NCBI GenBank assembly: GCA_012845835.1
Contig: JABAKD010000019.1
Location: 6,061,494 to 6,125,493, forward strand
Direction of reading: 5' to 3'
Length of the DNA: 64,000 nt
Origin: Undaria pinnatifida
Taxonomy: Eukaryota > Sar > Phaeophyceae > Laminariales > Alariaceae
The notes under the pieces were generated by a model. That model did not search any database. It saw only the letters and a list, made by a program, of their open reading frames with translations, and was not told where the DNA came from. Positions 28,401-63,925 of this stretch are shown in pieces (positions within the stretch are counted from its first letter, which is position 1; the number at the start of each line of letters is the position of its first letter). Position numbers and translations under genes: made by a program.

Positions 28401-30567
28401 AAAAAAAGGTAAGAGGTGCCACCCCCTTTTCCTCGAGCGCTTCATTTCGTCTCCCCGAATCCCGATTTTGTTCAATGATCGGCCAACCTCCCTTCGTTCC
28501 ACTCCCCCCCGAACAAACAATCATTGTCATTAACTAATTAGGCTACCCCTCTATAACATTTCATTTTCACCTGGGTCAAGTTGACGGACAGCAGCACCAG
28601 CCGACACGTGGACCGCATCGACGCCAGCCGACCCGCGTATGTCTGAATAGGCTCGAACAGTATCGCCAGCGCGGGCTCGTGGAAACCCTCTAGAAACGTC
28701 GCAGCCTTGATAAACCTGAATAAAATACCAGGGTATATTCGTACACGTTGGCAGATGAAGTGGGGCGGTCTTGTGATGCTGTGTTGATCGAATCTCTTTT
28801 TCTGTCTTTCTTTACCTCTCCCTTCCCTCTCCCCTCTCTTGTCTGTCTGTCTGTCGCGCTCTACCCCCCCGTCTCCTCTCTCTATCTCTTTGTCTTTTCC
28901 TCTGGCAAACAACTCCCAAGGAGAAAGGTGGATCTTGACGAGTCTGACTGGTGCCTGCATCGTATCATATTAGTGTCGGCTTCTGTGCAGCCGCGGCAAA
29001 AAAGGGCTACCTTTACGGGCGCCCCGTTTGCGTATGCGCAGTATGCATGCATGACACGTGCGATACGTGTTTCTCTATCTGTACCAACACCAACGAGGCT
29101 CGTGCATGCGCAGTATACACGCACGATATGCGCGAGGAGTCTTCTTGAACGTGTATCATCACCATCAACACCAGGAAGGCACATCAACCCCGACGGTCTG
29201 CAGGGCGCCGAGGATAGCTGGCACCTGATGCTCAATCACGCCATTCTAGCAAAACAGCAGTTCATGTTACGCCCCCTCCCCAACCCTTTCTCCCGCAACG
29301 AAAAACGTATAGATGCTCCTCGCCAAAAACAAAGGCATACAAATCACGACTGAGCTACGCTGAACTGGTTGCATTACAACTACAGTACAGACAGACATGC
29401 CTACAACGCCAGGACTGAGAACGGGGGCCATTCTGGGAACCCTCACCCAGTGAAGCCGGCCTCCTCAAGATTTATCGTGAACGGTTTCAAAACTGCCAGG
29501 CGCGGCCCTCCATCCCTTGGCCCGTCACTCCTGATCGACCCGTCCCCCTCTCCCCCGCCTGGGGCTCCCTTAGCCCCCTCCTCGCCATTTCTGCCGTCCC
29601 AACCGACAACACCGTTACGGCCCATGCTACCGTAGTCCGACGCCCCCCCTCCCCCACCCCCGCCCCCCCCTGCTACCGCCGCCTCCATCGGAAACCCGGC
29701 GTCATCCCCAGCCGTCTCCTCGCTCGACAAGGGCGCCAACAATCCTCTTCTCCGCAGGTTTCTGTTCCGCCGCCGCTGGAGCTGTTGGGCGCGCTGCCTA
29801 GCCTCTTCGCTGACGAAAACCGAATGGGGCACGTGTTTCTTGGTGGGTAGGACGACCAGCTGGCAGCCGGCGACGATAGCAGCGAGGCACCGGCCCGACG
29901 GGTCGCTGGTGGAGATGGTGGCCGGGCGATCCTTGAGGGCGGAGGCGAGGCCGTACCCGGGCTCGATGCCGCCGGCACCGGGGCCGATGGCCTCTGCGTC
30001 GAAATTGTGTATGGAGAGGGTGCCCAGCCGGCCGAGCAGGGAGTCGTAGGCGACGAGGGCCATCTTGGCCGGACCGAATGAGACCACGAGGATGTCTTGC
30101 TCCTGTTGCTGCTGCCGCCGCCGCCGCCGCGCCGCCTCGATAGTCGTTGCGTCGGCGTCCGTGTCGGAGGCGGAGGTGTTGGTGCAGGCGTCGGCGGAGG
30201 CGTTTGTATTGGCTGTCGTGGGGGGGAGGATGTCGCCCCCCACAACGGGGATGACGGCAAGGGACGTGATGGTGCCGGCGATCGGGAAGGTGCCGGCCAA
30301 CTCGAGGAAGAAGGAGCTCGCATCGTCGTCATCGTCGTCGTTACCACCGTTCGAAGAAGCAGTGGCAGCAGTTGCGTCGTTTCTTGTTGCTGCTGCTGGG
30401 TCGCTGTCGGGACCGACACGGTGCACGCGGTAGAGCTCGAGGATAGACGCCTTCGCGACCACGAGGTCGTGGGAGCCGGCGGCGGTGATGCTGCCGAAGA
30501 CGGCATGATCTACCCCAGTTGGTGGGTGAAGCTGCCTGTAGCAGGTGTAGATTGCCGTTGAGGTCAT
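7807..30567 (-). CDS. CPSF1: Cleavage and polyadenylation specificity factor 160-kDa subunit, 21 exons
   Basis: CPSF160 scaffolds the nuclear complex that recognises the poly(A) signal. Exons in gene order: 30567-29447, 28715-28571, 27633-27544, 27262-27111, 26652-24852, 24280-23974, 23607-23311, 22810-22520, 21960-20144, 19591-19421, 18673-18368, 17575-17417, 15997-15905, 15394-14804, 14120-13992, 13683-13634, 13272-13149, 10375-10235, 9598-9506, 8857-8676, 7999-7807. Each exon matches consecutive parts of the CPSF160/DDB1-like beta-propeller family: the N terminus YRQLHPPTG, then FLEGFHEPALAILFEP, HVNQSEVLSILAVNG, LGSR-like MGSRVGDSLLVKYG, and the C-terminal CPSF_A region with VVSDGRRNL, MDGGLGAILP and LDGSLLWRF, ending IDLASLF. 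Splice phases agree at all 20 junctions; three +1 frame breaks sit inside exons 6 and 9. The product is about 2,750 residues, against about 1,440 in animals. The excess is acidic or Gly/Ala-rich linker, mainly in exons 5, 9 and 14. All introns are GT-AG except the GC-AG intron 18. Confidence 0.95.
9176..9459. mobile_element. GGGTC-rich palindromic (MITE-like) element, copy 1
   Basis: It begins CAGCGTTTTTCACGG and ends CCGTAAAAAGCCCTG, so the ends are imperfect inverted repeats. The interior is made of GGGTCGGGTC on the left and GACCCGACCC on the right, including a nearly pure CCCGA run at 9355-9430. It lies in CPSF1 intron 19 (8858-9505). A related copy is at 16415-16669. No target-site duplication was identified. 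Confidence 0.5.
9599..10234 (-). other. CPSF1: GC-AG intron 18 of CPSF1
   Basis: Exon 18 ends AACTTGAAG and is followed by GCAAGA; no usable GT is nearby. Exon 19 begins after GATGCTACAG. The phase-0 join gives NLKVLQYAPN, matching the conserved family segment, so the GC donor is strongly supported by conservation. Confidence 0.8.
10490..11275 (+). repeat. Imperfect GGT trinucleotide tract in CPSF1 intron
   Basis: Long GGT/GTG-rich purine-biased sequence in intron 17. It yields artefactual poly-Val, poly-Gly or poly-Trp frames on one strand and His/Pro/Thr frames on the other. Confidence 0.85.
11489..13068 (+). mobile_element. Degenerate, 5'-truncated LINE fragments inside CPSF1 intron 17
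   Basis: From about 11,677 to 12,780 a broken reading frame encodes a LINE region downstream of the reverse transcriptase active site (VEISNDCSWDAHI, KLEYAGEVWEGN, MLGCSSTT, then NMCPCGTTTESRTHIVG in another frame) and a terminal NIWKKRNEHPNVGG. Stops and frame changes near 12,030, 12,127 and 12,216 make it a pseudogene. No YxDD motif is present, so it is 5'-truncated. A second degenerate copy of the tail follows at 12,801-12,950. A diverged 3' UTR-like segment occurs both before (11489-11600) and after (12955-13068). The junctions share AATGAGTAC followed by a C run. Orientation is antisense to CPSF1. Family assignment rests on remembered similarity to brown-algal LINE proteins. Confidence 0.7.
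13326..13485 (+). repeat. GGGA and GCCA tetranucleotide microsatellites
   Basis: GGGA/GGAC units fill 13326-13400 and GCCA units fill 13441-13483. They lie in CPSF1 intron 16, close to exon 17. Confidence 0.9.
14530..14654 (-). pseudogene. Partial duplicate of CPSF1 exon 14 within intron 14
   Basis: The segment 14568-14654 duplicates the 3' end of exon 14 (14782-14869). On the minus strand it still reads SPRMFVAVGTGMNEVQG in the same frame, against SPRMYVAVGTGMNEVQG in the parent. Many differences are synonymous or conservative (AGA/AGG, AAC/AAT, Y/F, D/E, K/R). A pyrimidine-rich stretch ending TCTCCCAG|G precedes it, like an acceptor. The parent's donor GCG|GTGCGT is GCGTTGCAT here, so the original donor is lost. 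An inverted repeat sits at 14527-14557. Confidence 0.65.
16200..16352 (+). repeat. Dispersed repeat family A, copy 2
   Basis: Shares GTAGGCCATGG, TTGTTCATCGGGTTGCGCC, AGCTCCTCAAGTGGTTAGGA and GTACACCTCTA blocks with the other copies. Located in CPSF1 intron 12. Confidence 0.6.
16415..16669. mobile_element. GGGTC-rich palindromic (MITE-like) element, copy 2
   Basis: It runs from CACGGGTTTCCACGGGTCGG to GACCCGCGAAAAGCCCTG. It has the same left-GGGTC/right-GACCC organisation and the same AAAAGCCCTG terminus as the copy at 9176-9459. It lies in CPSF1 intron 12. Confidence 0.5.
16745..16906 (+). repeat. Dispersed repeat family A, copy 3
   Basis: Shares CAGTAGGCCATGGG, GATCGCGTTGCACC, a T-rich block, GAGCTCGTCAAGGGAGGAAG and GGGTGCATCTCTA with the other copies. 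A further fragment (GGGCTCCTCAAGCGAGGAAA) lies just upstream near 16703. Confidence 0.55.
17147..17222 (+). repeat. Dispersed repeat family B, copy 1
   Basis: The core CGGAGTATC...GCTTGCAAAAATGAGTATCGAC recurs at 43517-43589 on the plus strand and near 58740-58822 on the minus strand. Confidence 0.6.
17636..18015 (+). repeat. GGT trinucleotide tract in CPSF1 intron 11
   Basis: GGTGGT runs with occasional substitutions fill most of intron 11. They read as ACC repeats on the CPSF1 sense strand. Confidence 0.9.
19997..20091 (+). repeat. CCAAA pentanucleotide microsatellite
   Basis: About 18 near-perfect CCAAA units in CPSF1 intron 9, roughly 50 bases inside the donor at 20143 (TTTGG on the sense strand). 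Confidence 0.95.
20925..21014 (-). other. CPSF1: Frame break 3 in CPSF1 exon 9 (C runs 20925-20937 and 20997-21014)
   Basis: The frame carrying SYLVVCRRGGLLEVLT upstream and the frame carrying SDVIVHPVGAVEGP downstream differ by +1. Both conserved blocks belong to the CPSF160 family. The switch must occur near these 13- and 18-base homopolymers. Confidence 0.7.
21337..21353 (-). other. CPSF1: Frame break 2 in CPSF1 exon 9 (17-base C run)
   Basis: The frame holding SEDEEWATLYGAASG upstream and the frame holding SYLVVCRRGGLLEV downstream differ by +1. The overlap region contains this uninterrupted 17-base run (G on the sense strand). Confidence 0.7.
22811..23000 (+). repeat. GGGTTGGGGTT-type tract in CPSF1 intron 7
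   Basis: Degenerate GGGTT/GGGGTTG units fill the part of intron 7 next to exon 8. Similar tracts occur in intron 6 (23620-23690) and intron 5 (24440-24600). They are not telomeric TTTAGGG arrays. Confidence 0.7.
24173..24188 (-). other. CPSF1: Frame break 1 in CPSF1 exon 6 (16-base C run)
   Basis: Exon 6 is 307 bases although both flanking junctions are phase 0. Its start reads VVDSLCTLGPIVDAALVP, and its end reads SLVCAAGYGQEGALTVFS in a frame shifted by one. The 16-base G run (sense strand) between them is the likeliest place. Confidence 0.75.
26948..26965 (-). repeat. Copy of the CPSF1 exon 4 donor site in intron 4
   Basis: Eighteen bases identical to 27106-27123, the end of exon 4 with its donor (TTCAG|GTAGG on the sense strand). 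This is a possible decoy or alternative 5' splice site 158 bases downstream of the real one. Confidence 0.6.
27699..27871 (+). repeat. Degenerate ~34-bp tandem repeat and GGCA run
   Basis: About five copies resembling GTTAGCTTAGCTTCGACGAG fill 27699-27836, followed by a GGCA run (27849-27871). Both lie in CPSF1 intron 2. Confidence 0.7.
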
Positions 30568-30953
30568 GTTTTCTCTCTACCGTCCGGGTAGTTTCTGCTA
30601 GATAATGGAGCGGCTGGTATGATACCCGTGGCTCTCTTTCAGGTTTTGATCGTAGTTGCTGCTGCTGTTGCAGTTGCTGCTGTCGCTGGCGCCTCTGTTG
30701 CTGCTGTTGCTGCTGCTCTCTGCTAGGAGTACGTGATGCACCTCGACGAGCAAGCAAGATCAACGGTGGTCGATTGTGGTGTTTGATTCCGCTTCTCGTC
30801 AGCAACCCACGGTCTCTTTCCGCATGCCTCCTCTGCAGCAAGGAAAGGCCAACGCACTCCCTACGGAGAACGAGAGAGCAGGGCCTACGACACAAGCTAT
30901 GGCTGCGCCGTGAGGTGCATCCTCTCTCACGGTGTTTGCTGGCGATTTGTTCC
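30568..30953 (-). promoter_or_regulatory. CPSF1 5' flank / 5' UTR, truncated by MULE insertion
   Basis: Only 387 bases separate the CPSF1 start codon from the transposon. The sense strand carries CAG/CAA-rich stretches near 30655-30720. No TATA box or defined core element could be assigned. The last ten bases (30944-30953) are the left target-site duplication. Confidence 0.5.
30944..30953 (+). repeat. Left target-site duplication of the MULE
   Basis: GATTTGTTCC immediately before the left inverted repeat, identical to 42739-42748. Confidence 0.95.
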
Positions 30954-31249
30954 GGGGAGTGATAATGACACACATGTGGGTGTCATTTTTTTGACACACA
31001 GGGGACAAAAGAGCTCCATCCCCGGGTTTCCACCCTCTGGTTTATGCTTATCGGACACAGCATGCACCTCTCTTTGAGGTCGCAAAGAAGGCTGGATGTC
31101 GCGCCCTGTAGGCACGCCGACACCACCGCAGACAGCAGCACGTAGTCTGCACATCACTGACCCTTCCATATCCAAGTCGTGGAGCCGGAGATGGAAAAAT
31201 CGTCCAGAACGAGCTCCCTTCGTGGTGCCGTCACCACAGCAGCAGCAGC
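30954..31249 (+). repeat. Left terminal inverted repeat of the MULE
   Basis: 296 bases matching the reverse complement of 42443-42738 with one mismatch seen. It contains a short internal palindrome (TGACACACATGTGGGTGTCA). Homology ends inside a CAG run. Confidence 0.95.
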
Positions 31250-32545
31250 ACGCAGATCAAACATGCTGCCTGCACTCAATCACCACAGATAGCAGCAGGT
31301 AGGATAGATCTTTATCACCGTCAGATATCCGACTGTTGGCGATCATGATGGAGAAAACGTGGACATAGAGCTTAGTTTGAGACACCTTCACAGGCGCAGC
31401 AGCAAACAGCAGCACTGATGCCGGGCCACTGATGCCCCGTAGTACAACCACCAGCACGCAAAGATGAAAGAAGGAACGAGGCAGATCAAGCGCGTTGCTG
31501 GCACGCCATCACCACGATAGATAGCGGACGCAATCTATGCATTGTTGCTGATCCTACATATCTCCGTTTAGGGGTTCGAGACCGACAAATCAGCACGTAG
31601 TCTGCACATCACTGACCTTTCCATATCCAAGTCGTGGAGCCAGAGATGGAAAAATCGTCGAGAACGAGCTCCCTTCGTGGTGCCGTCATCAGAGCAGCAG
31701 CAGCACGCAGATCAAACATGCTGCCTGCCGCACGCAGTCACCTCAACAGAGAGCAGCAGCTAGGCTAGATGTTTATCACCGTCACATATCCGACTTTTGG
31801 CGTTCATGATGGAGAAAACGCGGAGATAGAGCTTAGTTTGAGATGATACCTTCACAGGCGCAGCAGCAAACAGCAGCACTACTAGTGCCCCGTAGTACAA
31901 CCACCAGCACGCAAAGATGAAAGAAGGAACGAGGCAGATCAAGCGCGTTGCTGCCACGCTATGACGATAGACAGCGGACGCAATCTATGCATTGAATCTA
32001 TGCATTGTTGCTGACCCTAGATAGCCCTAGATATCTCCGTTTAGGGGTTCGAGACCGACAAATCAGCACGTAGTCTGCACATCACTGACCCTTCCATATC
32101 CAAGTCGTGGAGCCGGAGATGAAAAAATCGTCGAGAACGAGCTCCCTTCGTGGTGTCGTCATCAGAGCAGCAGCAGCATAGGCACCCGCGCCAGCCACCA
32201 AAGATCTCCGCGGCGGAGACGCAGATCAAACATGCTGCCTGCACGCAATCACCTCCACAGATAGTAGCAGCTAGGCTAGATGGTTATGACCGTCAGATAT
32301 CCGACGTTTGGCGTTCATGATGGAGAAAACGTGGAGATAGAGCTTAGTTTGAGACACCTTCACAGGCGCAGCAGCAAACAGCAGCACTGGTGTCACGAAG
32401 TACAACCACTACCAGGACGCAAAGATGAAAGAAGGAACGAGGCAGATCAAGCGCGTTGCTGGCACGCCATCACCACGATAGACAGCGGACGCAATCTATG
32501 CATTGTTGTTGACCCTAGATATCTCCGTTCAGGGGTTCGAGACCG
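31141..32545 (+). repeat. Three tandem subterminal repeats of the MULE
   Basis: Units of about 455, 473 and 477 bases start at 31141, 31596 and 32069 with CGTAGTCTGCACATCACTGA. Each continues through an AGCTCCCTTCGTGGTG block, a GATGGAGAAAACG block and a CAGGCGCAGCAGCAAACAGC block, and each ends near GGGGTTCGAGACCG. The first unit overlaps the inner part of the left inverted repeat. Copy 3 keeps a block of about 40 bases, absent from copies 1 and 2, that also occurs next to the right inverted repeat. Confidence 0.9.
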
Positions 32546-32899
32546 GGAAATCGAGACAGGGAAATCGTCAGAGTCTGATGCACTACACCCCATCGTTTGA
32601 AATACCCGTCGACAGGTTCGTCCTCCACTAGAATCTCACCCTGATTGTTCTGGTAGGCGAAGGTGCTGTATGCATGGGCTGCGCCCTCCCGGAGGGAACA
32701 GTATACGCCATCCAACGTCAGACCGTCTTCAAATACCACACAAACAAAACCGGTGACAACAGCAGCATAAAACCACCAATGAACCAGCACATAGACATGT
32801 TTTCCACCCAGGCAGGCTCTCTCCCCAATCCTCGCGGCCCATGGACACGAGCAAGGCAAACACCAAGCGCGGTTCAAAACAGCAAACAGCTGGAAGTTC

Positions 32900-35800
32900 C
32901 TATTCCTTCTTTACCCTTTTCGCGCTCCCCCTGCCACTCTCCGTGCAATCCTTCGTCCGAGTCTGCTTCCTATTTCTTGTCAACTGGAGCGGAGGGTCTC
33001 GTATTCCGCTCCAAGTCTCTGAAACGTTACTCTCGCCTCGCCGGGCCCATGCATCAACGGCGCGGCCCAGTTCGCTGAACATCCCCATCTCGCCAGGTCT
33101 AGTGTCCTTCGTCATGTTGTCGGTGTACTTGCGAGCGGCCCTTGTGCAAAGCTCCATGATATTCGCGAACGTCCTACCTCTGATGACAGACAGCATACGG
33201 TCGGGTGCCGCTTCTTCAGTGCTGGCGTCTCCGAAATCAGCAGGCCCGTCCCAGTCACCAGTGAACCCGCCATTGTAAGACCCACCCCCATCCTCGTCAA
33301 ACTTCCCCAAGCCCGCTTTATCCAGGCTCCAATGCTCTGAAGAGGAACGCCACCGTGGGTGTATGGATTCTCCTTTGAACTCTTTGCCACGTTTTAGGTG
33401 CGTGACAAGCGCGGCGAGAACGTGCCTGCATTGCAGCCCTCGCCTCAGTATCTGCAAGCACGTGCACAGTTGAAAGCCACCAGGGCCTATGACAACGAGG
33501 TGTCCTACTTTTCGGTCAGCTTTGTGTTTGTACAAAACTTTCACTATGGAATCAACTTCCACTCCCGCAACAAGACGATAAAAAGAAACCAAGGATGTGG
33601 TGCCAAACATAGTGATATCAGGTTCCCCCCTTTCCTGGAATACCTCTTCAGGAACCTGGCAACACACGTCGTCCCCTTCAACGTCGATGCACATATCGTC
33701 GTCAGATGATCCGCTGACGTCGTCCGCGGAGCGCGCCGCCAGATTTTGTAGTAACTGCATCGATCCACGCCCCTCCACCAAAACGCTTGTTTCGTACGCC
33801 GAGCTTGCTAACATTTCGGCCAGTACTTCCTGTCGAGATAAATAGGAGCAAGTCCGAAAAGGATGCGGGGGTGAGCGCAAGGACACAACCGGTCAACCGG
33901 TCGCGCCAGGGGAGCATCGGACAGCGTCTGACATTCGCGTCACAAAAGCGTGTGCCAACCGCAGCAAATGCTCGTCAAAGTGACACGGCCGCGGCAACAC
34001 ACAAGAATAGAGCTTACCTCCGCTGCGTACTTACTGGCTCCAACTTTCTCGTACGCTGTTAGGACTGGTTCAAGCGATCTCTTGATGTCGTTTTCGACGT
34101 GAGCTTTCCCCAAAGAAGCGCGTTTGGTGCTTTGCCTGCAGTACGGACGTTGTCGAAAGGTGCCTGTCAGCATTATTCGCAACGGCCGTACGTGTACAAT
34201 GCAGACGAACAAAATGTGCCCAAAAAGGGCGCCAAAAACGAAGACTTCAGAGCATCGTTCCTGCCCGGGGTTGATATGAAACTACCGACACGCCGTGCGC
34301 AGTACCACACCAAACGAGCAATGGAGCGAAAACCCGGTGGGGACGTTGTGTCACTTACATTCGGGATGCCAGGGCGAGGTCTTCCGCGACTTGTTCGACT
34401 CTCTGCCTCACTTGACGAAACGTCGAGTTTCTCTTCAGGTTCCGGCCGTTCTTTATCGCGCTGAAAATACCCTCAACGCGCTGAGTGGCTGTCATACCCA
34501 AGGTCATGGTTGTCGGGAAAAAACAGCGCGCCCAATACGTGCGTATGCTGCGAACGGCACGTGCGAGGCGAGAAGGCGCCAGGGACGGTATGTCAAAGGC
34601 TTCGTTGGAAAGAGGAAGAGTTCTTCGCGGCGACCAAGTGTTACGACAAGCGGCCACATATACACTAGGTTGTCCAAAGGGTCGCCTACGCAAATTAAAA
34701 CCGAAGACAAAAAGGCGTGCAGAAGCGCCCTCACCTGTATAGGTGCTCGTTGACGTATTTTTCACACGCTGTGCCCTTCACGAGCTGCTTCACGCCCTCC
34801 CACACGCGATCAAAGGCCTGGAGACGGGAAAAAAAGAAAAACATGCAGTAAGCTCCTGGAGAACAGACGCGACAAACTGCTTTCACAACAACATGAGTCT
34901 CCATTTCATTCAAGGCAGGCGCGCAAAAAAAAAGAACCCAAGTAAAACCCTGTTCCATTGGTACTGCGATCTTCCCACCTCAGTCGATGTCGCATAGGAA
35001 GCCGCCGTGAACCGCCGGAGCAATTCCGTGCATCCTGCTTTTTGCAAGGCCCCCATACAATGCTTCTTGATGTTCTTACAGATGTGCCAGGAGCAGTACA
35101 AGTGCTTCGTGTGAGGAAGAAGCGTCGAGATCGAACTCGTCATTGCTCCGTCGGCATCTGTGATGATTACCTAAGGACGGCCGTGGGAGGTTGGCGCTGT
35201 GAACATAATATACGTGATGACGGCGATTGAGCAACACCGTTGACACCGAAGCAAACCCGAACTACTCAGTAGGCTCCGCGATCCATTCATTCATCATACA
35301 AAAAAAACGTGAAGACAAGCTCACCTTCGGGTGGCCCCCGCAAATCTCCAGGAAGAACTGGTTTGCGAAGTCGAATGTTTCGCTTTGTTCGTTGCCGAGA
35401 AAACCCTGGGCGAAAACGATGGTCTTATTCTCAGAGTCGACGCCCACATACAAACACAGCTTGAAGTCGTACCTGTCGAAAATGCAGTGTACGTGGGTGG
35501 GTCGTCATCGTTTGCACGGCAATGATTGCCGATCCGGAGGAAAGGCATCTTTTACTACTGGACGAAGCCCTCACACGTACGAACAACGTCGTCACATCAA
35601 TGGGAGGGTAGGAGGCAATTGAAGACTTCCACACCCTCCTCACCTGTTGGTGAGACACGTATTGTCCTGGATAACAACACCGCCATAGGTTCTTGCCAGC
35701 ATAACTTGTTCGGGTGAAGCCCACATGATGGACCGTAGCACCTGGTCGGCATCAACATCCCACTTCACGGTCTGCGGTCCTCTTTCCAGCTCCGCCACAA

Positions 35801-38800
35801 GGTTGAGAGCGTCTTCGCCCGATGCCCAGCGCCCACGTAGCACCTTCGCCGACAAATTGCGCACCTGCGTGGGACACAGGAGGACAAAGGCGAGGAGGAC
35901 GCTACTGTGTAGTTGTTGCAATCACACAACCGATTTCGTGACATCAACCTACGCGCAAAAGCATAGACGGAAGTCATATGAAACACCCGTTGAGGATACT
36001 ATCTAACCGAGGCGAAGGTAGACAAGATGCTGAGGAGGCGGGGGTTCGATTCACCGCTCGCCCTTCAGCAAAGTACGAAGGGTGTTGTGGTATGTCTCTA
36101 CGCCAGTAGTGACATTTTGAATCGGAACGAGGGGACCGACGCCGACACAGGCAACCAAAAATAAACCGAAACTTTCAGAGGTACCGTAATGACCGGTTCA
36201 CCGTGTTCACACCTTTCGTGCACCCTGCGGGCCGAGCTTGTACGGCTTCATTTCCTCCGCAACGCAGCGGTAGATGAGGTGTGGTCTCACCCCCCCCAAC
36301 GTCATCTTGCGGATTTGACCCATGCAACGCTTTTCAATCTCATCCACAGGGACCAAGTTCTCTTGCTCGAGTTGGGACGCGCGAGAATCCATATCACAGG
36401 CGGCAGCGTGCTCAAGATGGACCTGAAGAAAACAATGGACGGGAGGGCACAAGTGAGGGCGGACATCGTCCCACACTATTCTGTGTACAGCTCCATATAC
36501 TTCGAGGTGCCAATCTCTTCCTCGCCACATCTTCGTCTACACAGACCAATTCACGGTCGGGTCGTATTTACCTTCGTGATTGTCGGTGGGTCTTTGGTGT
36601 TCCAGGCGACAGCCACGCGAAAGTCACACTCGCACTGCACGGCGGAACAATCGCGGTCAAGAGACAGGCACAACAGAAGGCCGGTCAGAGGGCACGAGTG
36701 ACAATCGCGAATAAAAACACGCTCCAAACTTGGACGGAACATTCCGGATGACATGGCATCTCGGTTACATCGAGAAATACTTGCCTTCGCCGACCATGAT
36801 GTTCTCCTTGGCGCCGGCAACTTCGAGGTTCTCGCCCTCCCATAAGCGGCGCACCTCAACGTAATCCGGCTCGGTCGGCTACCTTTCCCTGCGATCTGTT
36901 TAGGGTGGTACGTGCTGGTGTGAGAATGCCGTTGTCTACTCTGACGAGATCCGGATTCGAGAGGGATGCTACTGGCACAAGGGTGGGCAAACACGCGATT
37001 TGTTGTCGTTCTTTTTACGCACCGGGTCTCCTTTGATTGTGGACTTATTTCCGGTGAAACCCTGGCGTCGAAGCTCCGCCTTGATCCTGCGGATCACCAT
37101 TTCCCAGGTAGATTCGGCATCGTCAAGAACGGAGAACGCGTACCCAGACTCGATCTTTAACGGCTCTTCCGTAGGGGTCTCCTCGTTTTCATCTGCGTCA
37201 AAGAGCGAGCAAGATATAAGCATGCCATTGCTCTACCCTCGTAATATCCGTTGAATGGCTGTTTAGTTGATTGTTTCCAAGTGATCGAAACGAAACCATC
37301 AATCCGGGGGTAACACTGACTGAGGTCGGCAACCGCACACCCTTCGACATATTTTCCTTCACCGGTTTCGCCCAACCTAAAGCACGTCCTGGGCGCGGTG
37401 CTCATGCGCAATCGCTCGCGTGGTCTTCGACATCCCACCCTCGGTAGCCGCATGAGACCGCATGAGACCGACGAACGGGGAAACAGCGGCTATCGTGTGA
37501 TGATGTACGGCCATTGTACCCTCTACTCACCCTCTTCATCGTCTTCACTCTCCCACCCACTCCAACTATCGGACCCATATTCGACGTCGTCGTCGCTGGC
37601 GTCCTTCCACCTCGAGTCGTTGCCACCGTCATTAATTTCAATGTCCGTGGGGTTGGAGGCCTGATAAATCTGCAACACGTGCGGACAAACGACGAAACAG
37701 GGGAGAAGCTGTCCTGTTCAACCCTAAACACTGTGACCATAAGACACAGAACAACGTTCCTTGGGCGCGAAACCGCATGCAGGTACGTAAGACAGACGTC
37801 TCGTCCACATGCTGCAGAGGACATGCTCGAATAGTCCACAAACACGGCGAATGTGTCCCAGATGGTTAGGTTTCTGAACCCACGCGTGGATCCGCGGCCC
37901 CCACCTTCCGTGAGGCTACCTGCGCCTTCTTGTACGTCTTCCAGGCTTTGATCGCCGCAGTTTTCGCAGCTCGGGCCAGGTCGATGGAGTTCTCCCGATT
38001 AGCTCTGTCCACCCCCTCCCCCCCGTCGTCCTCCTCCTCGCTCTCCTCGTGCCCATTTGCAATACCGGACTCCTGCGTCAGGCGACAGACACACTCGTTT
38101 CGATCAGCAAACAAAATGCCCCGAGCGGGGAAGTGCGCCGAAACTTCGCGAATGCTGGCGGAAGGCACCGTCCTACCTCACACCACTTTCCCATCAACCC
38201 TTACCCGCAACAGTCTCTTGTACTTTTTCTTCGCGTCTTTTGCGGCAACACGAAGAATCTCGACGTGGTCCGCCTCCTCCTTTCGCGCCGCCGCTGCTGC
38301 GCTCGCCGCCATGCGTACCGAGTCCTCCAACCCGTCCAAATCGCCTGCATCGCCAGGACGTTCGCAAAGACGCACGGCACAAGCCACCAAGGCGCCTGAT
38401 AACGACTCTGTTTGACACAGAGGAATGGATACAGACCCGCGTGTTCCGACGTTGATAACGTATAAACTGCTCTCACCTTCGCACGAGGACAGATCGTCGT
38501 CGCTGAACCAGTCGTGTTGAGTGTCGCTGTCGTCGTCACTGTTACTGAGGTTCTCGGCGCCGCTGTTATTGCGACCGTCCTCGTGCCATACACCCTCGCT
38601 GACACACAACTGCAACAATTCGGCCACGTAAGGGTCAAAAATTGTATCGCAGTTGATGGGGTGTGTGCATGGAACAATTTCCATTTTCATCGGTCGACTA
38701 AACATGCTAGAATACACGATGCCATCAACGAACAGCGCAACGTCTCATGACCCGGCATGGCGCAGTATGACGCGGCAAATTTCCGATACAACAGCATGCT

Positions 38801-41599
38801 AACCATCGTGGTCTTGAATACCTTGTGCTTGACTTCGATCAACTACCTGTGCATTCGAGGCCCGGGCGTCCGTACAACCGACTTGTTGGCGACGGTGCGT
38901 TGTAAGTGGCTCGACAGCTGACGCCAAGGCACCATGGGCCCCCAAACGGAAACTATCTGGGACACACCTTCCTTTCTTGACGCATGAATCGGCGTATCGC
39001 AGACTCAGCACGGTCATATTTACGTCGGGCCTGAGCTGCTGCGACTCTCCCCTTCGCAAGCTCCAGCCGTAGGTTTGAGACTACTGGGACGTAGTTGTAC
39101 ATGGCGTCTTGCCCACGCTTCTTCTGCTGGGTTTGGGCAAAGTGGATTTCCTGTTCGGTTGGGACAACAGACGGCACACCGAACGAACAAAATGACATGG
39201 TAATGGCGACCACGTCAATCACAAAAGTTGACCGCGTGGAAACCACTCTGTCGTATTCGCGACAATAAAGCGGATGTGTTACAACCCCCTTTGACTCTGA
39301 TGACTGCGACCTTGCACTCCATCTCACCTTCTTGAGCCTGTGGTATCTGGTCTTGTGCTTTTTTGCGGCGGCCCTGGCCTCGGCCTTCCTCTTCTGAATC
39401 GCATCAAACTCGGCTGCTTGTGCTTCACCACGGCACGAGTCGGAATCCGACCCCCCAACCCACGCCGACCCCCCGAACCACTCAGGTTGTCCCCCGGGAT
39501 CCTCCCCCGCTCCAGCCGCCGTCCCTTCGCCATGTGCTGCTGCTGTCTCCGCCCCACCCTCCACCCCACTTTTGTCCTCCATCTCACCTTTCATCCCATC
39601 ACCCTCAGTGCTTCCCGTCCCCAACCCAGTCCCCTCTTCTTCTGTTCCTTCGGCCGCCGCTTCCTTCCCGTCGCCACCTACATTTTCTCCGCCCGCACCA
39701 TCCAACCCACCATCTCCGTCTTTTGCCTCAGCACCTTTCCTCTCCCCCTCCTGCCTCTCACGCTCCCTCTCCCTCTCCTCTTCCTCTTTCTTCTCTTCGC
39801 GCTGTTTCTCTACCTCCCTAACCCTTGCATCCGCCAACTCGTTCTGCTTCAGCCGCAAGTTCTCTGCGACTAAGTCCAGCCTCGCCTGTCGCCTCATGTC
39901 CGCAGCCTTCTCCGCCGCGGATTGCACTTTCTCTGCCGTCGTCGAGCCAAATGTAGCCTCTCGCCTCGCGTTGTAGGCAGCGACTTCGTCATCGAACGCT
40001 TCCTGGAACTTCTCGTCCTAGAGGGAGCGAAACGTTAATGAATGCTCAGCGACCAAAATAGATATGGGATTGTCCGTTGTACCCGTTCTCCCTCATTTTA
40101 CTGTCCGGTTCCCGCATCAACCCTGCGACCCAGGTGGTGTTCGCCGGCAAAGAAACGACGAAAAACATACTACGGTACTGTAACTGTAACTCACTTGAAC
40201 CTGGAACAGAGGGGGTGACACCGCGACCACAGGGAAAGGGGGAAACGTGCCGTCCCTCTTCGCAAAAGTTCCGAAGTGGCACCCTGCTTCTAACGTTGTA
40301 TCCTTTCCAACTTCGGGGATGTCGGACAAGTCCTTTTGACGGGCTATCTGGCAGCCGTGCGTTAGCACCACGGCAACCTCCTCGATAAGGCGCTCGCCGC
40401 CGTCTGCTCCAGCTACGCGGTACACAAGCTGGGCTTCGTCCGGCAGAAAGTCTCGGGAATGGCGGTAGTCGTCGACCGTATTCGTGCCCTTCCTACCCGT
40501 CCCGTGAAAAGGCGCTGCCCCCTGCGCATCATACTGCTTCCTGCTCTTCCTATCTATGGGGACGAGCATCTTCACTCGTAGTCGGAGCGCCTGTGAGGCC
40601 ATCAGCATAGTCAAATCACCCCCCCAGCGCTTGGGTTCTCCGAAAAGAGCAACGGAAGCAATAACCATCTTGATGTTGCCTTGGCGAGTCGACAGAACGT
40701 CTCCCTCGCTAGAAAATCTGGCGTACTTCATGACCGCTTGGGGGTAGTAACGCGTGCAATTCCACAGGATGCCACCCTCCGATACAAGCTCCTCCGCGTT
40801 TGCCGCGGTCCATGCGAGGACCGCAAGCTTTAGTGGAGCCCAGTACACATCAGAGCCCCAAATTCCCATCGCCAAGGCCCGCCAGGCACAGTTTCCGTCG
40901 CCGGCGACAAACTTCGCTATCCACCCCTCGTCGCGCACCTCCTTCGGGAGAACCATGGTGCCAAAGTAGTCGTGGGCAATCTTCTCGTCGCACACGTTGG
41001 AAGCAGGGGAGGGTGGATGGGGATTATAACGTACGGGCAAACAACGCAGGCTTCGAAGTGCCGTGCCCAGGCTGGAAGGGGTTGATTTCTATGGCATATC
41101 GCCTTGCAGAAAACGCGTTCACGGTCACTGCAAACAGACGTGTTGGAGATCGCGCTACTTTGCCGGGACCCGGTATTCCAACCGGAGGCCTAAAGTTCTT
41201 CGCGGACAAAAGCGTATCATACACGCCCACCCCCTCGCGGCTACCGGTTACTGTTTCCACAAAAAGCAATATATCCACATTCTCACTGTGAGCTCTAAGA
41301 AAAGATTCTGCATTGGAGTGTGAACCCTCCGCACCTCGTGCTTCGTGTCGTCTTTGTTCTCGCCCACAAGAGACTTTGGCACTGCTGGCAGCTCTCCGCA
41401 TGTCGTTCCGAAAATTTTCTCCACAGCGCATGTGTTCGAAAAGTCCTTCACACGCTCGAATGGTGTTTTCGGTTTCCCCTGTACCCCATTTCCGTCAACC
41501 ACCGACGCCGTGTCCCGTGCAGGTCTCGGTGCCACCACCCCATTGCAGAAACCTACGAGCTGCCGCAGTAGTTCTAAGGCCTTCGCCTCCGAGATAACA
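32900..41599 (-). CDS. OTU-domain MULE transposase with SWIM zinc finger, multi-exon
   Basis: Proposed exons: 41599-41335, 40983-40195, 40017-39328, 39150-38968, 38917-38847, 38697-38477, 38407-38184, 38072-37905, 37669-37531, 37192-37023, one unresolved near 36880-36800, 36634-36572, 36422-36213, 35864-35644, 35472-35325, 35170-34979, 34817-34735, 34685-34359, 34135-34018, 33829-32900. Phases agree at every junction except around the unresolved exon. Domains in order: an OTU-like cysteine protease (AGDGNCAWRAL with the Asp/Cys pair, later WGGDLTMLMASQ; His candidate VVLTHG); a charged coiled-coil segment (40017-38968); acidic segments; a C..C..H..C DNA-binding finger (CECDF...LEHAAACD); a DDE core with VVIQDNTCLTNR, VIITDADGAM plus CSWHICKNIKKH, and TATQRVEGIFSAIK; and a SWIM finger (CTCLQ...CRHVLAAL). 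The product would be roughly 1,750 residues. The N terminus is not fixed: exon 41599 begins in phase 2, so at least one upstream exon is expected. The single-gene model is inferred from phases, not from transcripts. Confidence 0.8.
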
Positions 41600-41779
41600 C
41601 TGACCGAAACAGCGCAGCAACAAAGGACAGGATGGTCTCAGCATCACCCGCCTACAGGATGGTCTCAGCATCACCTGCCTATGTGCATTCTACACCCTGC
41701 CCGTACTGCTGTACTGCTGTAGGCACTACCGTCTACAAGAATTTAGAGTAGTTCCGTCGTAGAAGGATACACGCCGTTT

Positions 41780-41780
<1 letters not shown>

Positions 41781-41840
<60 letters not shown>
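41781..41840 (+). repeat. Perfect (CAG)20 microsatellite inside the MULE
   Basis: Twenty uninterrupted CAG units (CTG on the transposase sense strand), about 180 bases upstream of the first exon identified. Confidence 0.97.
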
Positions 41841-41842
<2 letters not shown>

Positions 41843-42053
41843 CAACGTGCACTTACCAGGGCCGCAATTGGGGCCAGGTGGGGGTGGCCCCCCAAGAGTA
41901 GAGGCGTCATACACACGACGACACGATTACAGCAGTTGTCTGCTATCTCCCTTGACGTTTTGTATCTGAAGACATCAGTGCACCTGCGAAACAAACCCAT
42001 CCCAAGAATATGTTCTACTTGGACCGATCTGTAGACATGAGCGCACCTGCGGA

Positions 42054-42261
42054 GCAACTGCATGTGTGCATACCGGAGTATGCCCTGGGGTATGCATACT
42101 GCGAGTACATGGCGCAAACTCCAAATTCAAACTCAAGGCAAAAAGTTCGCGCGGGTAGCAACTGCATGTGTGCATACCGGATGATGTCCTGGGGTATACA
42201 TACTGCGAGGACATGGCGCAACTTTCAAATTCAAACACAAGGCAAAAAGTTCGCGCGGGTA
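42054..42261 (+). repeat. 104-bp tandem duplication near the right end of the MULE
   Basis: Two copies start at 42054 and 42158 with GCAACTGCATGTGTGCATAC and end AAAAAGTTCGCGCGGGTA, with about ten differences. No coding assignment. Confidence 0.85.
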
Positions 42262-42442
42262 CGCGAAACACGCAGAGAGCCTAACTTGACCGGCAGTGAC
42301 GGCAATCTTCGCAACGCCACGCTAGAACAGATTTGACATGGGCCGCTGCACACATGAGACACACCTCCTTTGCGGACGGGAAAGCAATGCGCCGCGGAGA
42401 TCTTTGGCGGCTGGCGCGGGTGCCTGTGCTGCCTGTGCTGGG

Positions 42443-42738
42443 GCTGCTGCTGCTGTGGTGACGGCACCACGAAGGGAGCTCGTTCTGGACGATTTTTCCA
42501 TCTCCGGCTTCACGACTTGGATATGGAAGGGTCAGTGATGTGCAGACTACGTGCTGCTGTCTGCGGTGGTGTCGGCGTGCCTACAGGGCGCGACATCCAG
42601 CCTTCTTTGCGACCTCAAAGAGAGGTGCATGCTGTGTCCGATAAGCATAAACCAGAGGGTGGAAACCCGGGGATGGAGCTCTTTTGTCCCCTGTGTGTCA
42701 AAAAAATGACACCCACATGTGTGTCATTATCACTCCCC
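42443..42738 (-). repeat. Right terminal inverted repeat of the MULE
   Basis: Reverse complement of 30954-31249. Beyond its inner end (42385-42442), sequence similar to subterminal copy 3 continues (GGTGCC/GGCACC...AAAGATCTCCGCGGCG), so the original inverted repeat was probably longer. Confidence 0.95.
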
Positions 42739-42748
42739 GATTTGTTCC
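42739..42748 (+). repeat. Right target-site duplication of the MULE
   Basis: GATTTGTTCC immediately after the right inverted repeat, identical to 30944-30953. Confidence 0.95.
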
Positions 42749-45228: not shown

Positions 45229-48200
45229 ATGCCGAGCGCAAAGAAGGAACGCTCGAAGAAGAAGAAGGCGGCCAAGCGTGCTGGTCCTCCTGGCCTCGAG
45301 GCCGCGACGGCCAGAATCAAGGCCGCCAATGCCACTGAAGACCTTTCCAACGGACTTGAGGCGTTTTTATCGATCGACCTGCCCGGGAGTCAGAGTATGG
45401 CGACCCCAGGTGCGGCATCTCGTCCAACAAATAGGGCGGGCGTCAATCTCTTTGGAAACACACCCGTTTTTGGGGGAGGAAATGCTTGGAAATAGTGTAG
45501 GGTCATTTTTGAAGGAGCAAAAGTACTAAGATTGAGGTGTTCGGAACCATCGCCGTGTACCGGTGCTGGTTGGACAGCACTGCTGTTGTCGTGGTTGTGG
45601 ATGTGAATACGTTATGTTCATGTTCGTGGTTTTGGTTGTGATTGTGAATATTGTGTAATTGTTGCGGTTGCGGGTACAGTGTCATGCTTGTGGTTGTTGT
45701 TGCTGGTTCAGTCTGCTGTTGAGCGTCACCTGTCTTCTGGCGCGGTTATGCCACGACTGATCAGCAGAAACGAAACTAGCAACGCGAATATCGCAAACTA
45801 TTCGCAACTCGCCACTGGCGACCCACGGCTTGACCCTTTTGAACCATCTTGGGACTTTGGATTAATAATCATAGCACTGCTACTGTAGCCGCATGACGCA
45901 CGCCGCACTCCCCGCTCGGCTAAAAACCCAAATACTCAAAGCCACAACGCGCGACTGGGCCTGAAAACCGGCTTCTTTTTTGTTTCCCTACCCCTGCGCG
46001 TGCCCGCACAGCAGTCGGTGGTGCGAAACCAGACGCAAACGCTGCCGCGACGACTGCGGCGGCTACCGTCGCCCCCGACCACGTACACCTTGAAATCCGC
46101 GCGCCTAAAGACCTGGCGGAAGGGGACACGCAGAGCATGTACGACTTGCTCAAGGCCAACATGCACGACATGTACGTGGAGGCAGGGTGGGGCTGGGACG
46201 CGGCGGAGAAGAGGCGGGAGATGGAGCATCGAGACGCGCGCTTTCTGATCGCTCGTTGTCGCGGTAGTGGAGGGGATGAGGGAGGCGCGGCGGCGGCGGT
46301 AGCCTCGCCGCAACCTATGGCGAGTTGTGCCGTCGGCAGCGAAGCAGAGGGAGACGCGGGCGCCGTTAAGGCGTCCTCCACGGAGGTGCGCGCGGCAGCG
46401 GTAGAGGACACGAAGTCTTTGGCGAGTGTAAGCGACGACAGCGCAGTGCGGTGTGACGGAAACCCTGTGGGAGGAGGCGCGCGCGTTGAGGACGGCGCTA
46501 GCGACAACGCTGTGAATGTGAAGGAGGAGGCGGTGTTGCCAGCGGGAGAGGAGAGCGAGAGAGGGCGGTTGGCGGGATTCTGCCACTTCCGGTTCGCGTG
46601 GGACGAGGACGAGAACGAGGACGGGGAGGGGGTCGGGGGCAAGGAGGATGTGCTGTACGTGTACGAACTGCAGGTGGCGCCGTGGACTAAGCGGAGGGGT
46701 CTCGGACGACGGATGATGCAGGCGCTTGAGGTATGCCAGTTGCTCGGTGTCAGGGGAGGAGAGGGGAGGGGGGCGGGTACTCATAATCATGCATGGCCGC
46801 ATCCCTACAATATCGGGATGGAGCACGTCGGTTTTCTGTCTACCAGACAGTCATTGATTGCATCATGCATGGAGGAGGGCGGGGGGGCGGGATTCGGGGA
46901 GCGCTTGCGGTGTGCGAGGAGTGTACATGCGTGTCTGCTATTAATTGTTTACAAGGATGCAGTACGGTGTGAAAACGGGGGCGAGCCACTTTGTGTGGCA
47001 TACGTATATCGTGTATATATATCACGCGATGTAATTGTTTCGATGTGCGTTATGTTTTTGTGCTATGCTATTGTTTCTGGACCAGCTGTTGACTCTGTCA
47101 CGTCTCTTGTGGTGTCGATCATGATCGTTTAGACTCTCGTCGCTTTGTGGGTGCAGGTTAGATCCCCTTTCACGATCTGGATTTAATCGTTGGACAGAAC
47201 ATGTCCCATTTCTCGATCTGAATATTTTGTGGCAAGATATATCCATGAGTTGCATGATCTGGGCGATGTAGACCATGGGATCTGTAGGACCCGGCTCCTG
47301 CGCTCATGTTTTCCGGGCGGGTTCTGTATTAATCGGCTCTTACGCAACATCTCATAGCGCGAAATGAAGAAACCAACGTAGATATTCTAGGTCGTGAGCT
47401 GTCTGATGTGTGTAAACCATTCCCTCACGGTTGTGTTTGTTTGTGTTCACCGAAGCCTCTCCTCCTCCCGAAGGTCTATGGTCATACGACTACGGCCATG
47501 CACAAAATGAATAGACCTCCCCTCTCCCCCTCCCCCCCCCCCCCCCCCTCGGCTTCCATTCCCCACGAGCAGCTTTTGGCGAACAGGCACGGCATGTCGA
47601 AGGTAATGCTGACGGTGTTTAAGGAGAACAAGCAGGCGATGTCGTTCTACACGAAGAAGTGAGTGCACGTCGACTGGCGACCAATCGCACGCTTCACCCG
47701 TGCTACGATAGGGGCGGACTTTTTTTTTTTTTCAACACAATGTTTCTATGTGAAGCGACTCCTCGACTACGGAATCAGCTTGTGTACCCAGTATCGTTGG
47801 AACACGATTTTTGAATTTGATTAATGTTCGTTGTTTACCTAGGCCACGGGTACTATCAATCGGTGGTACTGTCAATCGGGTTGCAAGTTCGTTTTTTTTT
47901 TCACGGTCAGTTTTGGTTTTGGTTGAGGTATTTATTTAATAGTAAGCTGCTCAAAATGAGGAGCCGTAGAAAGTTTGTGTGCGCCCCCGCCGTAGCAGGC
48001 GTCGCTTAGTCGTGCGCGAACCGTCGTCGCCGCGGCGAAGGGTGGAGCTAATAAACCGAGAGAGATAGATGTAAGGAAAGGCGGCATTTTGTTTGGCTCG
48101 CAAGGACAAGGCATGCAGCAGATGCAGAGCGTCACAGGTAGCGTGAAGGGAAAGCTCGGCAAGCCGAAAAAGAGGGGCGTTCAACCCTGCGGCTCGTTTG

Positions 48201-62584: not shown

Positions 62585-63925
62585 ATGCGGCAAGAGCTCT
62601 GCACTAAGTGTTACTCGTCGAACGTGCTGCAGTTTAACTTTTGTTGGCATTGCGGCACACCTCCGTACCGTGGACCACCGGTCCCGCGGGATCCGAGGGT
62701 ACCACCGGTCTAGATTGATCTGGATAAACTGCGGGCCCGTCGCGACGTGGTGCTAGCAGGTATGGCGCAACAACCCGGGCAACAACGGAAGTGCAAGGTA
62801 GCCGATGATTTCGATGCATTCCTCCGCGCTTATTCGGCTGGGCTTCACGGGCGGGAATCTGGGATCGATCACGATGTGTTTGCTTGGTGTTGCTACCTTG
62901 ACTCACACGGGAAGGGTACCACTTGGGTGCACGACGTGTCATGCTCCAACGTTGGCTCCAACACCGCCGACGACTGCCCGGCTGCTACGAACTGCGCACA
63001 ACGATATGCGGCCAATTCTCTCGACAAAGGCAAAGTATCTAAGTCAAAAATGGCCTACCGGGAGCAGCTCGGCAGGGGGGAGGATTGGGACCCGGTTGGG
63101 AAGCTCGGTAACCCTTGCTCGAGTCAGCTGGTCAACGCCTACCTCTCGTACGTTAGTGTAGAGCAGAAGCGGGTAGGAGTCCCGGTTAACCAAGCGAACC
63201 CCACGTTAGCGCACGTGTTGGCCGAGTTACGGGAAGACATGCGATCATGGGCGCAGCTCGTGGAGTCTTTGGCTCAGCGAATTGCTATCACTAGGGACAT
63301 CGCCTTGTATTCTCTAGCATATGCTTCTATGAGGCGGGGGCACGACCTGTCCTTCACTAAAAGATCACAGGCTCTGCGCCTTCCACAGTCTAGGGGGCTG
63401 GTAGTTAACTTTCAATTGGGAAAGACGTTGAGAAAGTCTAGCGAGGCAGTCGTGGTGTTGGCGGACAACGAATGCGCTCAAATTTGTGAGTTCCAGGGGG
63501 TCACGGAATACATTTCGGCAGCGTATAGTGTCGATTGGGACCTCGCCAAAGGACATTTGTTTCCGGTAGTTTTGCCAGGTGGGGGTCGGGGAGACGTCGC
63601 GCTGACTGCACCGCGCATGGTCACAGCGCTGCAGGGGCGCCTGCGAGCGGCCGGGCTGCCCAGTAAGTTAACAATGCATTCATTTCGCTCAGGCGGCTCC
63701 CTGAGTAAGTCGCTAGCAGGAACCCCAATGGACGAGATCATGCACATGGGCGGCTGGAAGACGGAGAGCATGGCACGATACTATCTTGGGTCTACCATTA
63801 GTACGAGGGTAGCAGGGGCTAAGCTGCAACGGGAGCAGGCTTGTGCCGATGCCTCCGGCTTGCCACTGTCGCCGGCCTTCGCGGAAGATTTTGCTGCATG
63901 TTCGCCGAAGTTCCATTTTAAGTAA
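62585..63925 (+). pseudogene. Zinc-ribbon tyrosine recombinase with in-frame TAG
   Basis: Tyrosine recombinases cut and rejoin DNA through a covalent Tyr intermediate. From ATG 62585 the frame encodes a zinc ribbon (CTKC...CWHCG), is stopped by TAG at 62711-62713, and resumes in the same frame to 63925. The downstream part has an N-terminal helical core-binding region and a catalytic domain with the first Arg in YASMRRGHDLSF (about 63,332), the HxxR box HSFRSGG (63,677-63,688) and GGWKTESMARYYLG carrying the Trp and the candidate Tyr (about 63,780). If translation restarts after the stop, the recombinase domain alone could still be made. The upstream zinc-knuckle frame and absence of a polymerase fit a Crypton-like or decayed DIRS/Ngaro-like element that continues past the window. 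Confidence 0.7.

Follow-up and report, generated by a model that had tools for sequence, protein, structure and literature searches.

The transposon and its copies in the genome

The window analysed here is a stretch of 64,000 nucleotides from the brown alga Undaria pinnatifida (contig JABAKD010000019.1, positions 6,061,494 to 6,125,493). It contains a Mutator-like element (MULE) in which exons for a predicted OTU protease domain are found together with exons for a MULE transposase. Comparison of inverted repeats within the window placed the whole unit at 30954-42738 (11,785 bp, coding strand minus). A preliminary description made from the sequence alone had put an OTU-transposase fusion at 32900-41599, an interval that falls within the element but is too narrow. 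The ends are paired terminal inverted repeats (TIRs) of 296 bp each, one on the gene's 3' side (30954-31249, beginning GGGGAGTGAT) and one on its 5' side (42443-42738). They are 100% complementary, over 297 nt when one base of the target-site duplication (TSD) is included, and long TIRs of this kind agree with a MULE. The TSD, GATTTGTTCC, is an exact 10-bp repeat (30944-30953 and 42739-42748), within the 8-11 bp range of MULEs. The predicted start codon (42501) lies in the 5'-side TIR, so that the opposite TIR encodes an identical peptide start.

Copies were searched in a 511-Mb assembly of 68 contigs. At least 41 TIR matches were found, which formed 17 pairs and left 7 unpaired; 40 of 85 candidates were scored, and the TIR counts are lower bounds. 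Among the matches listed, all 17 pairs enclose both the OTU exon and the exon of the SWIM zinc finger; 14 pairs are near full length (11.3-11.8 kb), one is of 10.1 kb and two are of 6.3 kb. An exact 10-bp TSD flanks 12 of these 17 copies, while one has 9 bp, one has 5 bp and three have none. Ten other copies were taken whole. Six of them match the window copy over its entire length at 99.7-99.9% identity, one (L039) has an internal deletion relative to it, and three align only in part (L033 up to element position 2,647, L035 to 7,929 and L041 to 10,238).

The OTU exon itself has 49 matches in the genome (E<=0.001): 22 are full-length at 100%, counting the window copy, one is partial at 99% and the rest are at 29-47%. 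A SWIM exon follows downstream on the same strand in 20 of the 22 full-length matches, at a spacing of 6,362-6,366 bp in 17, in 7/7 members of the 38-39% subfamily of L028-L030, and in 32 of the 49 overall. For this linkage count 58 of 92 SWIM matches were taken, mostly the stronger ones, and 34 weak or broken ones were omitted. OTU and transposase thus travel as one mobile unit that was recently active, because the OTU and SWIM exons are linked, TIR pairs enclose both, TSDs are present and the copies are nearly identical.

Deletion derivatives were also found. The two 6.3-kb copies (L018 and L022) have one common deletion that removes the DDE exons and yet have different TSDs, which shows mobilisation in trans. 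An inverted duplication (fold-back), made of part of the coiled-coil exon, borders this deletion. In four short copies the OTU and SWIM exons are 922-934 bp apart; the idea of a common short form was rejected, as they carry two different shared internal deletions. On contig C30, an OTU exon of the window family without a SWIM exon (3372709, minus strand) and a SWIM exon, also of the window family, without an OTU exon (3509038, plus strand) are ~134 kb apart. The pair would be compatible with an inversion whose breakpoint lies within one element, and L035, which stops matching inside the element, is noted beside it.

Exons and domains of the predicted protein

The EukProt protein jgi/Undpi1/7840 (label HiC_scaffold_23; P0001) belongs to the window family, and all of its 1,497 residues map at 100% to the window copy, where they form 15 blocks between 42501 and 32903. 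P0001, like P0002 and P0003 from the 38% subfamily, is a predicted gene model made by others. The exons below are on the minus strand and follow this mapping, with ends that are approximate to a codon for exon 1. Exon 1 (42367-42501, residues 1-45) is predicted and Ala/Pro-rich, and exon 2 (41335-41601, residues 46-134) is likewise predicted. A CTG/CAG run is present in the intron between them (41782-41847), and the few-base length variation among element copies is possibly located here.

Exon 3 (40195-40980, residues 135-396) carries the OTU domain and is followed by a gtgagt donor; profile, alignment, structure model and protein mapping all bear on it. The preliminary description had located it correctly, at 40983-40195, and had proposed to check it against OTU profiles, with a missing match as refutation. 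On this check the lone exon gave no Pfam match even at E<=10, which for that exon is the outcome named as refuting, and no member tested reached the Pfam OTU cut-off of 23.3 bits (best 22.2, window copy none). The missing match of the lone exon would suit a chance or low-complexity artefact, an explanation that we find scarcely credible in view of the family data. A profile from 6 relatives has 18 matches in the PDB at E<=1, of which 17 are recognisably OTU proteases (best 5.8e-7) and the eighteenth is a viral polymerase chain (11nq_A). An AlphaFold model from 6 sequences was poor (predicted local distance difference test score, pLDDT, 53.7), and the model from 10 sequences was taken instead. 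In its structure alignment all 50 VIA-align rows listed are recognisably of the OTU family. The predicted model therefore has an OTU fold, and the family profile together with this fold overturns the negative result of the lone exon. Nairovirus vOTU and human OTUD3, OTUD1 and OTUD5, all solved structures, are among the best profile and fold matches, but identity to them is only ~11-18% and they have 129-169 residues against 262 in the kelp domain.

The motif GDGNC is found at 40902-40888, with the Cys box DGNC at 40888-40899 and the catalytic Cys codon at 40890-40888. For the putative catalytic His, to which the preliminary description gave no position, the best candidate is the H in CHFGTF (40276-40278, HF motif), which falls in strand 233-241 of the model. 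The residue after it is F in 7 of the 10 aligned rows (all MULE-linked rows and L053) and V in three copies of an array on contig C26. A check of Asp, Cys and His placement had been proposed, and all three are invariant in 10/10 relatives. Such a fold could be a non-catalytic docking or ubiquitin-binding module, as the strong divergence from known OTUs, with 11-18% identity in structure alignments, may indicate. We consider this unlikely, since the three residues are kept although overall identity among the relatives drops as low as 24%. With moderate confidence, we take the OTU domain for a working hydrolase of ubiquitin or of a ubiquitin-like protein.

Between the OTU domain and the transposase core, exon 4 (39328-40017, residues 397-626) encodes a coiled-coil and acidic or low-complexity linker, whose counterpart is co-located in relatives (judged by eye) and in P0002. 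Exon 5 (38968-39150, residues 627-687) encodes a coiled coil and is 51% identical to subfamily sub27 over 39 aa. Exon 6 (38364-38609, residues 688-769) is a predicted acidic segment, with an uncertain 3' end and an uncertain join to exon 7. A zinc finger, read by eye, is probably split between two exons, with its first half in exon 7 (36569-36667), also predicted and 61% identical in sub27 over 23 aa, and its second half in exon 8 (36210-36419), which probably has a DNA-binding region as well.

The DDE core extends over exons 9 (35643-35861, first Asp codon 35666-35664), 10 (35322-35471) and 11 (34979-35167, second Asp codon 35158-35156). It matches the MULE transposase domain PF10551 over its full length (1-99 of 99, E=1e-18, 68 bits against a cut-off of 27.6), which bears out the MULE core of the preliminary description. 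Exon 12 (34737-34817) is followed by exon 13 (34358-34549), with the putative catalytic Glu codon at 34474-34472, and by exon 14 (34018-34134). The DDE residues, picked by eye, occur in order as QDN, TDAD and RVEG in the window copy and in subfamily sub24, where the context of the Glu is conserved as TASQRVEG. Exon 15 (32900-33829, stop 32902-32900) has a candidate SWIM zinc finger (33475-33407) and the C-terminus. The finger had been noted earlier and lies after the DDE core, but PF04434 scores 15.6 bits in the window copy, below the cut-off of 19.6, and P0002 exceeds it with 21.7. Neither a Gypsy-type integrase core, as in Ginger1, in P0001 nor a Ulp1 peptidase domain in P0001 or P0002 was found with Pfam at E<=10. 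Pack-MULEs are defined by gene fragments and the lack of a transposase, and here a full MULE transposase is present between the TIRs. A three-unit sub-terminal tandem repeat with units of ~450-510 bp also lies inside the element (31098-32552).

Probable joining of the OTU domain to the transposase

As had been described before, the exon phases are compatible without a stop, both across the exons labelled J to Q and from the OTU exon to B and C. In 4/4 subfamilies read (window, sub24, sub27 and L028), the reading frame is still open where the OTU exon ends at GTGAGT. A downstream exon that starts with Asp was seen by eye at the equivalent place in the subfamilies, and the P0002 model has it in this form. 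L053, on contig C26, has no intron here: its OTU runs on, in a frame of 930 residues, into sequence that resembles exon 4 by eye. The predicted models P0001, P0002 and P0003 all fuse OTU and transposase parts. In sub24 the complete order of OTU, coiled coil, zinc finger, DDE core and SWIM is retained; sub27 keeps the order, but exons L to O have no match in it. As read from the genomic copies, the order of parts is common to divergent subfamilies, and these features strongly suggest that splicing joins OTU to transposase.

Two genes in one transposon, a passenger OTU gene and a separate transposase without a fused protein, would resemble Pack-MULE cargo or a two-gene element of MuDR type. If the intron behind the OTU exon were retained, translation would stop 25 codons further on, so that a short OTU product is possible, and contig C26 has OTU-like genes without a SWIM exon within 15 kb downstream. 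We judge such an arrangement quite improbable, because no stop ends the OTU exon, an in-frame donor stands there in every subfamily read, three predicted models in two subfamilies are fused, and the OTU of L053 reads straight on. The C26 cluster (4.49-4.75 Mb; L054:527-4900, L053:1504-4296) has 11 OTU-like matches, some of them in a tandem array that repeats every ~1.77 kb. The element might have taken its OTU from this cluster in the host, or the cluster might be a remnant that was domesticated.

Several observations weigh against a mobile, OTU-fused transposase, besides the Pfam results given above. The P0001 join at residues 769/770 is doubtful, as P0001 skips segments that P0002 uses; therefore the true protein is probably longer than this model. 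Parts of the DDE core are missing from sub27, P0002 and P0003: the second-Asp exon is absent from both models and the Glu exon also from P0003. Five of the 17 paired copies are without an exact 10-bp TSD. No SWIM exon lies downstream of 17 of the 49 OTU matches, and 26 of the 58 SWIM matches, two of them of the window family at 100%, have no OTU match within 15 kb upstream. In the sub24 subfamily, both copies fetched (L055 and L056) have lost the OTU exon by internal deletion. From these OTU-less copies and the SWIM matches without an upstream OTU it follows that OTU is not strictly needed in cis for spread.

On balance the observation in the preliminary description is confirmed and its interpretation partly supported. 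An OTU fold in one mobile MULE, the fused predicted models and the in-frame donor speak for the fusion; the parallel capture and the protection of the transposase that it also proposed are possibilities. The explanation that we favour as a whole, and regard as fairly probable, is a recently active Mutator-like cut-and-paste transposon that would encode one polypeptide of ~1,500 residues or more, in which an N-terminal OTU is followed by a coiled-coil and acidic linker, a zinc finger, the DDE core of MULEs and a SWIM finger.

Possible function, known systems and neighbouring features

The MULE core, TIRs and TSDs indicate that the element transposes. The most likely activity of its OTU domain is hydrolysis of ubiquitin or a ubiquitin-like protein, and a fused state would point to the transposase, or the complex that it forms, as the site of action. 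In cis, the OTU might remove ubiquitin from the transposase, or from chromatin or repair proteins at the transposition complex, and a complex trimmed in this way might persist long enough to complete excision and insertion. An active OTU could otherwise work in trans on host factors, that is on silencing, histone ubiquitin, DNA repair or proteasome targeting. L018 and L022 were moved in trans after loss of their DDE exons, OTU-less copies exist, and the authors who described Ginger propose an effect on DNA repair (PMC2836005). A physical link to the transposase speaks for an action close by, and we hold action in trans to be somewhat unlikely. More tentatively than the fusion itself, we propose that an OTU deubiquitinase with catalytic activity may have become a fixed N-terminal part of the transposase in this kelp MULE lineage. 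The part would have been selected across several subfamilies, would be recently mobile and convergent with Ginger1 and Helitrons, and would edit ubiquitin marks at the element's own transposition complex.

Similar systems are known. Ginger1 is likewise a cut-and-paste DNA transposon with an OTU in its transposase and Ulp1 as an alternative (PMC2836005). It differs in its Gypsy-integrase-type core, its C-terminal OTU and its animal hosts, in contrast to the MULE core, N-terminal OTU and brown algal host of the kelp element. The same authors suggest a role of these domains in transposition via DNA repair. Mutator elements with Ulp1 occur in plants, Hydra and lancelet (PMC2836005). They too are MULEs with a captured protease for ubiquitin-like proteins, but Ulp1 belongs to the SUMO protease family, and the kelp element has OTU and no Ulp1 match in P0001. 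The names KI-MULE and CUMULE are in use for such Ulp1-bearing elements. Animal and fungal Helitrons and Helentrons have an OTU-like protease inside a transposon protein (PMC6431247), which is a rolling-circle RepHel protein, whereas the kelp element uses a DDE transposase.

Proteases of the ubiquitin and SUMO systems thus recur in unrelated transposons, with Ulp1 in Mutator and Ginger1 and OTU in Ginger1 and Helitrons (PMC2836005, PMC6431247). Brown algae, a separate multicellular lineage, would join the list of hosts, and the reading given here suggests that a transposon carries its own tool for the cell's ubiquitin system. To our knowledge nobody has settled why transposons have such proteases. 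With near-identical recent copies, OTU-less derivatives and intact catalytic residues, the kelp family allows a transposase to be compared with and without its OTU.

A literature search with most subscription papers outside its reach found no description of an OTU-MULE fusion, and OTU, protease and Ulp1 are absent as terms from the main text of a broad MULE survey (PMC6446971). A search for full-length homologues gave one match among the 7,987 candidates sharing most words, and two region searches gave only Undaria proteins among the matches listed, with no relative outside this species; the word filter required shared 5-mers and candidates of 0.55-1.75 times the query length, so that absence elsewhere is not implied. 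There was no match in phage records, and no relative among 19 pattern matches in viral contigs or 34 in bacterial and archaeal contigs. Plant FAR1/MULE-type proteins in public databases may carry an OTU, C-terminal there. If so, the databases would already contain this pair of domains, and the kelp element would be a further, N-terminal version.

Other features were found in the window. The frame at 29443-30576 (minus strand) is the probable first exon of a gene that we take to be CPSF1-like, with a match to the RSE1/DDB1/CPSF1 propeller at E=7.5e-4 (19 bits, cut-off 26.9). Its ATG is near 30567, ~0.39 kb from the element and on the same strand, which places the transposon just upstream of this gene. 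A GNAT acetyltransferase-like frame (PF00583, 4.9e-5) is present at 45924-47132 (plus strand). The frame at 62714-63925 (plus strand) resembles a tyrosine recombinase; it matches an ALOG domain (2.4e-6) and, weakly, a phage integrase (0.0023), and possibly comes from a Crypton or DIRS-type element.

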